Shown: piece after piece, positions 19,473 through 29,967 of the stretch
Layout of the letters: every line of letters starts with the position of its first letter
How positions within the stretch are numbered: position 1 is the first letter of the stretch
From: Succinatimonas hippei YIT 12066
GTDB lineage: Bacteria; Pseudomonadota; Gammaproteobacteria; Enterobacterales; Succinivibrionaceae
Direction of reading: 5' to 3'
DNA length: 36,206 nt
NCBI RefSeq assembly: GCF_000188195.1
Contig: NZ_GL831077.1
Location: 1 to 36,206 of the forward strand
Made by a program: the position numbers and the translations under genes
The notes under the pieces: model-generated
The model's database searches: none
Told to the model about the DNA's origin: nothing
Seen by the model: the letters and a program-made list of their open reading frames with translations, nothing else

Positions 19473-19751
19473 ATGTCTGAAACTCAGAATACCGCTGCCA
19501 AAGTGGCTCGCACTCTCCGCGGCCGCGTCGTAAGCGATAAGATGCAGAAAGCTTGTGTGGTTGCTGTTGAGCGTCGTGTAAAGCATCCGCTTTACGGTAA
19601 AATCGTAAAACGTACCACCAAGTTCCACGTTCAGGATAGAGAGAACATCGCACAGGTAGGCGATATCGTTGATATTTGCGAATGCCGTCCGGTTTCTAAA
19701 ACTATTGCTTGGACTTTGGTAAAAGTCGTTGAGAAAGCCCAAAAGGCCTAA
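19473..19751 (+). CDS. rpsQ: 30S ribosomal protein S17
   Basis: A primary 16S-binding protein with an OB fold. The 92 residues include [36 protein letters not shown] and the closing [28 protein letters not shown]. It is the last gene of the S10 block. A terminator, a new promoter and a second terminator-like hairpin follow within 105 bases, as expected at the S10/spc boundary. Confidence 0.97.
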
Positions 19752-19766
19752 TTAAGACTTAAAAAT

Positions 19767-19799
19767 AAGACCGCAGTTGTAAAATACTTGCGGTCTTTT
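19767..19799 (+). terminator. Terminator at the end of the S10 block
   Basis: AAGACCGCA (19767-19775) and TGCGGTCTT (19789-19797) form a perfect 9-bp stem with a 13-base loop, followed by T-rich sequence. It lies 15 bases after rpsQ. Its right arm overlaps the -35 element of the next promoter. Confidence 0.8.
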
Positions 19800-19816
19800 A
19801 TTATATATGTTATTAT
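19788..19816 (+). promoter_or_regulatory. Promoter of the spc block
   Basis: TTGCGG (19788-19793) and TATTAT (19811-19816) are spaced by 17 bases. The -35 is inside the stem of the upstream terminator. The expected start is near 19823, the first base of the next hairpin. E. coli also starts a separate spc operon at rplN. Confidence 0.65.
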
Positions 19817-19822
19817 TCAGCG

Positions 19823-19854
19823 CCCTTCCGAATCATTCGGCAGGGTGGTTTTTT
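19823..19854 (+). terminator. Terminator-like hairpin in the spc leader
   Basis: CCCT/AGGG (19823-19826 with 19842-19845) and CCGAA/TTCGG (19828-19832 with 19836-19840), with one mismatch between them, make a stem followed by T6 (19849-19854). It could end read-through from the S10 block. For transcripts starting at the spc promoter it would be the very 5' end, where it may protect the RNA or act as an attenuator. Confidence 0.55.
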
Positions 19855-19876
19855 ATTGATTAACGGAGCATTTGAA

Positions 19877-20245
19877 ATGATCCAGATGCAAAGCATGCTC
19901 GACGTTGCCGACAACTCGGGTGCTCGCAGTGTAATGTGCATTAAGGTCCTGGGAGGATCTCACCGCCGTTATGCTGGTATTGGCGACATCATCAAGGTGT
20001 CAGTCAAAGAAGCCATTCCTCGCGGCAAAGTCAAGAAAGGCGATGTTGTTGACGCTGTTATCGTACGTACCAAGAAAGGTGTACGTCGTCCTGACGGCTC
20101 CCTCATTCGCTTCGACAGCAACGCTGCAGTTTTATTAACTGCACAGCACGAGCCAATTGGCACTCGTATCTTCGGACCTGTTACTCGTGAACTTCGTTCC
20201 GAGCAGTTCATGAAGATTGTGTCACTTGCTCCTGAAGTACTCTAA
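19877..20245 (+). CDS. rplN: 50S ribosomal protein L14
   Basis: A protein of the subunit interface and first gene of the spc block. The frame is open from 19856, but ATG at 19877 gives [27 protein letters not shown], the family start, and is preceded by ACGGAG at 19862-19867. The 122 residues match E. coli (123). The core [33 protein letters not shown] is typical. Confidence 0.97.
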
Positions 20246-25653: not shown

Positions 25654-25671
25654 AATGCTTAGTTAAATTGT

Positions 25672-25700
25672 TTGCATAAACAATTTAAAATCTGTATAAT
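25672..25700 (+). promoter_or_regulatory. Promoter of the alpha block, overlapped by a palindrome
   Basis: TTGCAT (25672-25677) and a perfect TATAAT (25695-25700) are spaced by exactly 17 bases. An 11-bp perfect palindrome, TTAAATTGTTT-GCAT-AAACAATTTAA (arms 25663-25673 and 25678-25688), covers the -35 element. It could be an operator or an AT-rich transcript end for rpmJ. Start is expected near 25707. Confidence 0.7.
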
Positions 25701-25710
25701 TTCCTATTTG

Positions 25711-25737
25711 CATAGCGTCTGTTTTTCAGGCGCTATG
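25711..25737 (+). promoter_or_regulatory. 5'-end stem-loop of the alpha leader
   Basis: CATAGCG (25711-25717) pairs with CGCTATG (25731-25737), with an inner CTG/CAG stem and a T5 loop. It starts about four bases after the predicted transcription start. A weak T-rich tail follows, so it could be an attenuator or a 5' stabiliser. Confidence 0.5.
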
Positions 25738-25774
25738 TGTTTTACTTTATATACAAAAAGTTTTTAAGGGATGA

Positions 25775-25951
25775 CAAAGCCCGGTTTGTCCGTAATGTCT
25801 TAGATTTTACGGAAACTCTTTGCGTCGGATATGTTAGGTCTTACGGCGTTAAGAGATTGTCAATGCCAAAGTGCACTAGAGGGTTGTCGCGTATCCTGAC
25901 GGGCTTTGCGACAGCCGTATGTTTAACCGACCTTTTAGGAGATCAATAGTG
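25775..25951 (+). promoter_or_regulatory. Candidate S4-binding pseudoknot leader of the alpha operon
   Basis: TGTCGC (25885-25890) pairs with GCGACA (25908-25913). The loop between them contains CGGGCTTT (25900-25907), which is complementary to AAAGCCCG at 25776-25783, so a pseudoknot can form. The 100-base connecting segment has its own hairpins, CCGTAA/TTACGG (25790-25795 with 25807-25812) and CTCTT/AAGAG (25816-25820 with 25851-25855). The GTG start of rpsM lies just downstream. In E. coli the S4 protein binds a pseudoknot at the same place, also with a GUG start. The S4 role here is inference. Confidence 0.6.
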
Positions 25952-26305
25952 GCCCGTATTGCTGGCATTAATGTGCCTGATCATAAGATCGCCGTGATTG
26001 CTTTGCAGTCAGTTTACGGCATAGGCCCGACCCGTGCGCGCAATATTTTAGCTGCCGCCGGTGTTGCAGAATCCGCTAAGTTCAAAGATCTTGATGAAGC
26101 TTCCGTGGATAAAATCCGTGAGGAAGTTGCTAAGTACACCGTAGAAGGTGACTTACGCCGCGAGATTTCTATGAACATCAAGCGCCTTGTTGACCTTGGT
26201 TCTTATCGTGGCATTCGCCACCGTCGCGGACTTCCGGTTCGCGGCCAGCGTACCAAGACTAATGCACGTACCCGTAAGGGACCGCGTAAGAGCATTAAGA
26301 AATAA
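25949..26305 (+). CDS. rpsM: 30S ribosomal protein S13
   Basis: A protein at the 30S head that contacts the 50S subunit and P-site tRNA. The frame is open from an ATG at 25919, but GTG at 25949 gives the family start (M)[12 protein letters not shown] and has TTAGGAG at 25936-25942. The 118 residues equal E. coli, whose rpsM also starts with GUG. The block [27 protein letters not shown] ends the protein. Its start region lies in the structured leader, so translation is probably S4-regulated. Confidence 0.96.
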
Positions 26306-27491: not shown

Positions 27492-28481
27492 GTGTCAGTA
27501 TGTGAACTGCTCAAACCAAAGCCGGTAAGCTTTACCGAAGTAGCTCCCAATTGCGCACATATCGTGCTTGAGCCTTTGGAGCGCGGATTCGGTAACACAA
27601 TCGGCGTATCATTGAGCGGCATTTTACTTAAGACTCTGCCTGGTTGTGCTATTGATGCATTCCAGATTGACGGAGTCTCGGATGAGAACAGCGTAAAAGC
27701 CGATATGGTTGAGACTGTTTTTGAGCTCATTATGAACTTAAAAACTATCGCCGTAGCTTCTGAATCACCGCTGAACTCTCCGGTATGGCTGTCTCTTGTC
27801 AAATCAGGTGAAGGTGAAGTTAAAGCTTCCGACATCGTTTTGGCAAGCGGAATAAGCTTCCCTAATCCGGACGCTCACATCTGCACCCTTAAGGGTGCCA
27901 AGGCTGCGTTGTCGATGAAGATCCGCGTTTCTTACGGACGCGGTTATGTACCTGCATCTTCCGATGCCCATATTCCGGCTCAGTCGGAAAATGAGATCTT
28001 GATTGATGCTTCATTCAGCCCGGTACGCAGATTTGTTTATGAAGTAGAGTCTGCCCGTGTTGAACAGAGAACGGATTTGGATCGTTTGGTTATCAATATT
28101 GAAACCGATGGAACCGTAGCACCTGAGGCTGTCTTGATGCAAGGAGCCGATTTGCTGCGTGATCACTTGTGCGAACTTGTTGATCAAGAGGAAGTTTCAG
28201 AGCGTTCAATGGCTCCTGCAGCTCCTCCTATGCCGGATCCTGTTCTTATGCAATTGGTTGATGATCTTGAACTTACCGTTCGCTCAGCAAATTGTCTTAA
28301 AGCCGAATCAATTATTTATATCGGTGATCTGGTACAACGCACTGAAGTGGAGTTGTTAAAAACCCCGAATTTGGGCAAGAAGTCCTTAACTGAAATTAAA
28401 GACGTTTTAGCTCAGCGCGGGTTGTCACTTGGTATGAGACTTACCAATTGGCCGCCTCCTAATTTGCGTTCATCGAGATAA
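27492..28481 (+). CDS. rpoA: RNA polymerase alpha subunit, first paralog (beta'-side type)
   Basis: A full-length alpha subunit (329 residues, the same as E. coli) in the normal rpoA position between rpsD and rplQ. The dimer helix [13 protein letters not shown] is kept. The RR of ALRRILL (E. coli Arg44-Arg45, the key beta contact) is S42-G43 here, and HEY plus EGVQED (E. coli 66-77) are replaced by DEN and ADMVET. The segment that contacts beta' in E. coli (about 175-210) is well kept: [16 protein letters not shown] at 185-200. The C-terminal domain is canonical with Arg264 (E. coli Arg265), NCLKAE and GKKSLTEIK. The start codon is GTG. I predict it acts only as the alpha-II partner. Confidence 0.9.
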
Positions 28482-28977: not shown

Positions 28978-29967
28978 TTGGATCAAACTACTGATTTGCT
29001 AAGGCCCAATATCAAGGAAGTTGTAACGCTCTCCCGTAATGTATCTCGAGTTATTCTTGAACCTTTTGAGCAGCATTATGCTCAGGTTTTAGGTACTGCA
29101 TTGCGCCGCATTATGCTTTCTTCAATTCCGGGATATGCAATTACTGAAGTCGAGATTGACGGTGTAGTTCATGAGTACAGCGCCTTAGAGGGTGTTCAGG
29201 AAGATATTCTGCTCATTCTTTTAAATTTAAAGGAAGTTGCTGTTTTCTCTGCAACCATACCGCAGCACGACCCGGTACTTGAAATCAATAAATCAGGCAT
29301 CGGTACCGTTACTGCAGCTGATATCCAATGCCCGGGCGGAATTGAGATCCGTAATCCTGAATTGGTTTTGTGTCATATTACTGATGAAAAGACCAATTTG
29401 CGCATGCGCCTGCATGTAACTCGCGGTCGCGGTTATGTTCCGGCAGTTACTCACCCTCATATCGAAGGTGCCGAAGATCGTTTTATCGGTCGTTTACTGC
29501 TTGATGCTTCATATTGCCCGGTTCTTAATGTGGCTGTGCATACAGCTCCGCTCAATGACGGACAAGAGCAGTTGATTTTGGATATTGAGACCAACGGTAC
29601 AATCGATCCGAGTGATGCAGTTTGTTCTGCTGCTACCATTTTTGCAGATCAGCTCAATTCATTTGTTGATATCCGCAATTCCGTCGCTCCGGCTGACGAT
29701 GCTTCCTTCAAGCCTCTTATTGATCCGAAACTTTTGTGCCCGGTTGAGGACTTGGAACTTACTGTTCGTTCAGCAAACTGCCTTAAAGCCGAAGGTATTA
29801 AGTATATCGGCGATTTGGTACAGCGTACTGAAGTTGAGTTGCTTAAGACTCCGAATCTTGGTAAGAAATCACTTACCGAAATCAAGGATGTCTTGGCAGA
29901 GCGCGGTTTATCTTTAGGTATGCGTCTTGAGAATTGGCCGCCTGCAGATTTAGAATTAAATCATTAA
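28978..29967 (+). CDS. RNA polymerase alpha subunit, second paralog (beta-side type)
   Basis: A second complete alpha subunit, also 329 residues. The beta-contact region is canonical: [14 protein letters not shown] (R43-R44 equal E. coli Arg44-Arg45), [13 protein letters not shown] and LLNLK. The helix start LERGFGHT is changed to FEQHYAQV. The beta'-contact region is lost: E. coli 179-213 spans 35 residues and this one spans 31 (181-211), with [11 protein letters not shown] in place of [14 protein letters not shown]. The C-terminal domain matches the first paralog at 62 of 67 positions, including all promoter-contact residues. The start is TTG with GAGGG at 28966-28970. It is most likely the alpha-I partner in a heterodimer. 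Confidence 0.9.

Follow-up and report, generated by a model that had tools for sequence, protein, structure and literature searches.

Overlap of a terminator-like hairpin with the spc promoter at a ribosomal-protein operon boundary of Succinatimonas hippei and its relatives

We analyzed a 36,206-nucleotide stretch of the Succinatimonas hippei YIT 12066 genome (contig NZ_GL831077.1, positions 1 to 36,206; hereafter, the window), across which the S10, spc, and alpha ribosomal-protein blocks stand in order in the list of open reading frames (ORFs). Gene names were assigned by resemblance, and those of rpsQ and rplN by their annotated Escherichia coli match. Direct reading shows that the 125-base gap from the rpsQ stop at 19751 to the rplN start codon at 19877 holds both of the hairpins considered below, together with the spc promoter. 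The features of this boundary are as follows:

19473..19751, forward strand: rpsQ (S17), last gene of the S10 block (ORF list; E. coli match annotated rpsQ/rplN)
19767..19797, forward strand: hairpin 1, S10-block terminator-like hairpin with a 9-bp stem and a 13-base loop (sequence and folding)
19788..19793, forward strand: −35 of the spc promoter, TTGCGG (sequence; family loci)
19808..19816, forward strand: extended −10 of the spc promoter, TGtTATTAT, with TG at 19808-19809 and TATTAT at 19811-19816 (family loci)
19822..19824, forward strand: predicted spc transcription start (from the distance to the −10)
19821..19847, forward strand: hairpin 2, predicted 5′-terminal leader hairpin of the spc mRNA (folding, shuffles, relatives)
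19849..19854, forward strand: T6 behind hairpin 2 (sequence; shuffles; T enrichment in relatives)
19865..19868, forward strand: Shine-Dalgarno sequence of rplN, GGAG (sequence; present in most relatives)
19877..20245, forward strand: rplN (L14), first gene of the spc block (ORF list; matches)

The arms of hairpin 1, AAGACCGCA (19767-19775) and TGCGGTCTT (19789-19797), enclose the 13-base loop and are followed by the tail TTATTATATAT, which amounts to T4 when the final two stem bases are counted and gives way to T-rich sequence up to about 19808. The region 19760-19800 folds at −14.7 kcal/mol (z −5.2), a stability reached by 0 of 200 dinucleotide shuffles, and the terminator score of hairpin 1 is borderline (−0.4, by the formula attributed to d'Aubenton Carafa 1990). 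Five of the six bases of the −35 (19789-19793) are located inside the 3′ arm, with T19788 in the loop, which bears out the claim of an earlier, sequence-only reading of this DNA that the spc −35 lies within the stem of the S10-block terminator. When 19740-19880 was folded whole (z −3.15; 1 of 200 shuffles as good), hairpins 1 and 2 coexisted in one RNA fold and did not compete. The same reading had proposed that the shared bases could insulate the two blocks from each other; this does not follow from our analysis, because the RNA hairpins are noncompeting and the DNA common to terminator and promoter would tend, if anything, toward coupling, given that a polymerase paused at the T-tract of hairpin 1 would be expected to cover the spacer and the −10. 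Coupling of the S10 and spc blocks is at least as likely as their insulation.

Hairpin 2 (CGCCCTtCCGAAtcaTTCGGcAGGGTG, 19821-19847) comprises 11 pairs and one T/C mismatch and is followed by G and T6. It folds at −14.5 kcal/mol, and when the 11 bases immediately following the −10 were held fixed, 10 of 1000 shuffles were as stable and 3 of 1000 matched the terminator score of the hairpin together with its T-run, which in the window is 9.4, or 5.2 with stricter closing pairs. Folding of the leader from its start against unrestricted shuffles was unremarkable (starts at 19822, 19823, and 19824 were equaled by 18, 30, and 33 of 200 shuffles, respectively; z −1.4 to −0.9), probably because such shuffles also move the G+C-rich start, and the case for hairpin 2 thus rests mainly on its position and conservation. 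The predicted start at 19822-19824 corresponds to bases 2 to 4 of the hairpin. The sequence-only reading had the start, at about 19823, open a second hairpin with a T6 tail; the T6 is there, but 19823 is the third base of the stem instead of its first, and 19822 and 19824 are equally possible starts. The mean pairing probability of positions +1 to +4 is 0.97, 0.96, or 0.75 for starts at 19822, 19823, or 19824, respectively, and was equaled by 17 of 200 shuffles for the start at 19823. Our literature search, incomplete in its coverage, found no paper on transcript starts in Succinivibrionaceae.

To place the boundary among its relatives, we identified rplN in 48 of 56 Succinivibrionaceae genomes, representing 14 of 14 genera, and used all 48 upstream regions (family loci), one of them as the named copy L069; as these loci share ancestry, locus counts refer to nonindependent events. 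The 58 chosen outside loci, in which the −10 was picked by script without individual checking, were drawn from sets contributing 7, 6 of 8 (L031 and L034 omitted), 1, 12 of 80, 13, and 20 loci, minus the duplicate L157. From the 80-locus set, 12 loci entered the outside sample, L069 was counted among the family loci, and the other 67 were left out, many of them with very short gaps (relatives of Pseudomonas and Xanthomonas) and others, such as L059, L062, L077, and L104, simply unused. L134 was read one base off in all counts except those of the extended −10 (48/48), of TTG (35/48), and of read-through pairing, which are given below. Two shuffle runs were performed for hairpin 2, with leader stretches of 52 and 60 bases, respectively, and different shuffles, and their per-locus results differ; the hairpin search was limited to 40 bases in both, which understates the long leaders of genus g2. 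A MAFFT alignment of 13 leaders mis-set stems of unequal length and was replaced by the shuffle tests and per-locus folds. Arms are referred to as changing together where stems still pair as the sequence varies, a usage that involves no tree-aware statistic.

The −35 and −10 of the window are separated by a 17-base spacer, and a hexamer beginning with TTG lies exactly 17 bases before the extended −10 in 35 of the 48 family loci, whereas a −35 starting with TTG was found in just 1 of the 58 chosen outside loci. The TGn immediately preceding the TATAAT-like hexamer is more widespread, being present in 48/48 family loci and 53/58 outside loci. Judging from these elements, the spc promoter appears to be an ordinary sigma70-type promoter leaning on its extended −10. 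The alternative returned by a promoter scanner, TTGTAA/TATTAT at 19777-19804, was rejected, the extended −10 at 19811 being the one retained in all family loci.

Twenty-two of the 48 family loci, from 7 of the 14 genera (g1, g3, g4, g8, g10, g13, and g14), have a strong hairpin over the −35, and 18 of these 22 hairpins have a positive terminator score; the layout, for which the sequence-only reading had pointed to relatives as a check, is therefore present in several related genera. The remaining 26 family loci have no strong hairpin over the −35: the terminator of g5 lies upstream of it, T-run hairpins are seen by eye further upstream in some others, and in the g2 loci the −35 TTGC persists without a strong terminator on top. 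Two loci are informative about the overlap itself. L130 has the −35 TTGATC in the hairpin TAGATCAA/TTGATCTA, both arms of which have changed together from the usual CCGCA/TGCGG, and L008 retains the usual −35 in a different surrounding hairpin. In these loci, the promoter element holds its position as the surrounding hairpin is rebuilt. Separately, six loci of g5 and g9 (L030, L069, L142, L023, L017, and L018) carry an inverted repeat like ATATCAC-N7-GTGATAT that spans the spc spacer and −10 and could represent an operator or, again, a nested hairpin.

We also considered a pairing across the promoter available exclusively to read-through RNA (CCCATATC/GATATGGG, noticed by eye in E. coli) and rejected it: E. 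coli itself fails, with 105 of 300 shuffles as good, and the pairing is absent in the window (212 of 300 as good). Among the 106 loci tested, it passed the 5% level in 3/48 family loci and 11/58 others. In several other gammaproteobacteria (L040, L148, L149, L153, and L167, among others), the region before the −10 can pair with the leader, a structure formable solely in read-through RNA.

In 36 of 48 family loci, the base of hairpin 2 lies 4 to 6 bases past the −10. In the first shuffle run, hairpins with a base 4 to 10 bases behind the −10 had a median z of −2.7 in the family versus −0.6 outside, and start hairpins reached by at most 3 of 60 shuffles were found in 32/48 family versus 15/58 outside loci. 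In the second run, with the longer leader, 23 of 48 family loci had p ≤ 0.05, and 10 of the 14 genera include such a member; g5 and g11 showed no excess of hairpin over shuffles in either run. Across the family, the shape of hairpin 2 is mostly kept and its sequence is variable except for GCGCC at the base. Even in L011 and L132-L134, which belong to one genus and have longer leaders, the folds retain a stem at or beside the first bases. The mean pairing probability of +1 to +4 is 0.77 in the family versus 0.43 in shuffled sequences (above 0.8 in 18/48 loci) and 0.81 versus 0.51 in the 58 outside loci (above 0.8 in 39/58). Pairing outside the family thus equals or exceeds that within it, and a base-paired 5′ end extends to spc leaders beyond this family instead of being specific to it. 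Locus by locus, the signal is weak (at most 10 of 200 shuffles in 12/48 loci, the window itself standing at 17/200), and pairing is low in L002 (0.16) and near 0.5 in g10 and g13. L100 (Conservatibacter), L101 (Lonepinella), L107 (Actinobacillus), and L172 have a 5′-terminal hairpin and, following it, a GTCCCGAAAGGG-like hairpin with a T-run.

A related arrangement is found at the next boundary of the window, between the spc and alpha blocks:

25663..25688, forward strand: spc/alpha boundary hairpin, 11 bp (folding)
25672..25677, forward strand: alpha −35, TTGCAT, with 2 of 6 bases in the hairpin stem and 4 in the loop
25695..25700, forward strand: alpha −10, TATAAT (promoter scan)
25710..25738, forward strand: alpha leader hairpin, 12 bp, with a short T-run (z −7.2)

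Thirty of 51 matching family genomes yielded rpsM loci, 18 of which were usable; the others lacked an adjacent rpmJ match (11 loci) or TATAAT (L195). The stretch from rpmJ to the −10 folds better than shuffles (at most 10 of 200 as good) in 17 of these 18 loci, and the first 60 bases of the alpha leader do so by the same measure in 16. In g8, at least 4 of the 6 bases of the alpha −35 are stem-paired in 10 of 11 analyzed loci, within stems of about 8 to 16 pairs whose sequence varies between species; in all four loci of g4, only 1 or 2 of the 6 are paired. Inspection by eye shows that the spc/alpha end-hairpin lacks a good T-run and is thus unconvincing as an intrinsic terminator, and the main stem of the alpha leader starts further from the −10 than its spc counterpart. 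The two boundaries are therefore similar, not identical. In 9 of 12 g8 loci (within L184-L207, downstream of rpmJ), the alpha −10 is seen by eye to lie within a short palindrome, CTGTATAATCATACAG.

Several known systems resemble parts of this arrangement. In E. coli, the ampC promoter is located inside the last frd gene and the ampC attenuator (+17 to +37) is the frd terminator, as described in PMC6045580 and PMC11838884. This case shows that a hairpin close to the start can affect transcripts from its own promoter in addition to read-through ones. On these accounts, frd/ampC shares with the spc boundary a promoter within the end of the upstream unit and a start-proximal hairpin behind it, and it contradicts the claim of the sequence-only reading that hairpin 2 could terminate nothing but read-through from upstream. 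The spc boundary differs in the additional terminator-like hairpin that the upstream unit places over the −35 and in the position of hairpin 2, at the predicted start instead of at +17; attenuation by hairpin 2 is putative. The E. coli S10/spc boundary, where PMC6131387 refers to a termination site downstream of rpsQ as previously known, has the same genes, an extended −10 followed by GCGCC, and a terminator-like hairpin beside the promoter; there, however, the −35 does not resemble TTG and lies downstream of the hairpin and its T-run, and the start hairpin does not exceed shuffles (22 of 60 as good). In searches of titles and abstract openings, largely confined to the open literature, we found no paper describing the terminator/−35 overlap reported here. 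For the leader, the counterparts are the 5′-terminal stem-loops that reportedly stabilize the ompA and papA mRNAs, in work attributed to Emory, Bouvet, Bricker, and Belasco. In both cases a paired 5′ end precedes a single-stranded stretch and a ribosome site, whereas the T-run adjoining hairpin 2 is terminator-like, and stabilization of the spc mRNA is a prediction. The S10 leader of E. coli, attenuated by uL4 according to PMC10931766, likewise belongs to a ribosomal-protein operon and contains a hairpin with a U-run; the spc leader is much shorter and has no conserved protein-binding sequence.

From the anatomy of the boundary, its conservation, and the excess of structure over shuffles, all established above, we infer the start site, the protection of the RNA, and the degree of termination as follows. 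We give about even credence to a compact tandem-operon boundary, in which the S10 terminator sits on the spc −35 and hairpin 2 chiefly tucks in the 5′ end of the spc mRNA. Hairpin 1 would be the intrinsic terminator or 3′-end hairpin of the S10 block, and in part of the family its 3′ arm, reading TTGCGG, would serve both as terminator and as spc −35. The spc transcript would begin no more than a few bases from the foot of hairpin 2, so that its base-paired 5′ end would lie in front of an unpaired U-rich segment and the ribosome site. Hairpin 2 would then most likely slow attack by RppH and RNase E and leave ribosomes access to the U-rich linker; some S10 read-through or some spc transcripts may incidentally end there. 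The linker could equally have a role in translation. According to PMC3997798, a 5′ hairpin impedes conversion by RppH and stabilizes the bla mRNA; the same source also reports that a sequestered 5′ end leaves the rpsO mRNA and T7-transcribed lacZ mRNA unstabilized. The suggestion of the sequence-only reading that hairpin 2 is a 5′ cap structure for its own promoter is thus a good one, given where the spc leader is predicted to start. We favor it because the base of the hairpin stays at the predicted start and 5′ hairpins impede RppH, and rank it above a partial terminator or attenuator, although both can hold together.

Such a partial terminator, similar to frd/ampC and perhaps growth dependent, would consist of hairpin 2 with its T6 and act on S10 read-through as well as on spc transcripts. 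We consider it possible but somewhat unlikely as the main role. The combination of hairpin and T's is better than shuffles not only in the window (3/1000, see above) but also, at p ≤ 0.05 for a hairpin followed directly by T's, in 26 of 48 family loci, and 10 of 48 have terminator scores above 0 versus 0.3 expected from shuffles. T enrichment is, moreover, confined to the bases beside the hairpin (T fraction 0.68 in the 8 bases behind it versus 0.47 in the later linker; mean of 14 genera, Wilcoxon p 0.004, a comparison biased by the common AAC(C) before the ribosome site), and the frd/ampC element is described, in the accounts cited, as acting on both transcripts. Against this, the score is below 0 in 38 of 48 loci, g2 is an exception with few T's behind its hairpin (0.28), and a strong terminator ahead of the essential spc operon would presumably be costly. 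A more deflationary account, which we regard as improbable, takes the layout for a by-product of a short AT-rich gap, with a terminator that ends in TTGCGG by coincidence and all other features due to chance or single inheritance. The gap is indeed just 111 to 144 bases in many of the overlap loci, which makes overlap easy, and g2 keeps its TTGC with no strong terminator over it, but the shuffle tests, the overlap in seven genera, and the similar nesting at the spc/alpha boundary speak against it. Least probable by far, in our judgment, is that the spc leader is the binding site of a ribosomal protein repressing its own operon. Although the spc and S10 operons of E. coli are autoregulated, the same source (PMC10931766) places the binding of the E. 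coli regulator uS8 further in, at rplE. Moreover, hairpin 2 is conserved in shape, not in sequence, beyond its basal GCGCC, and an Rfam scan that found the alpha-operon site at 25872-25981 gave no family at gathering score in the spc leader.

The S10/spc boundary thus belongs to a known type of operon boundary, of which it is a conserved and compact version rather than a proven switch. The balance between ribosomal-protein operons has mostly been told from E. coli, with protein feedback dominant. A bolder and rather doubtful extension of the compact tandem-operon boundary is that nesting of the −35 in the preceding end-hairpin has been selected in this clade and used at least twice, so that downstream initiation would depend on whether upstream polymerases pass or pause, adjacent operons would be balanced by transcription, and the leader hairpin would tune throughput. 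The repeat of the arrangement at the spc/alpha boundary is the part most worth following. A lineage in which a terminator shares its bases with the following promoter at both boundaries would offer natural variants for testing the coupling of termination and initiation. Even as mere compaction, the overlap would remain a conserved case in which one arm of a terminator also serves as a −35.

Finally, the window contains two differing genes for the RNA polymerase alpha subunit, at 27492-28481 and 28978-29967, which flank rplQ and both match three alpha-subunit domains in Pfam. A second RNA polymerase alpha subunit is also present in Francisella, and here it could affect how promoters are read. 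L205 includes, by eye, the start of a gene resembling the first of the two (27492-28481).
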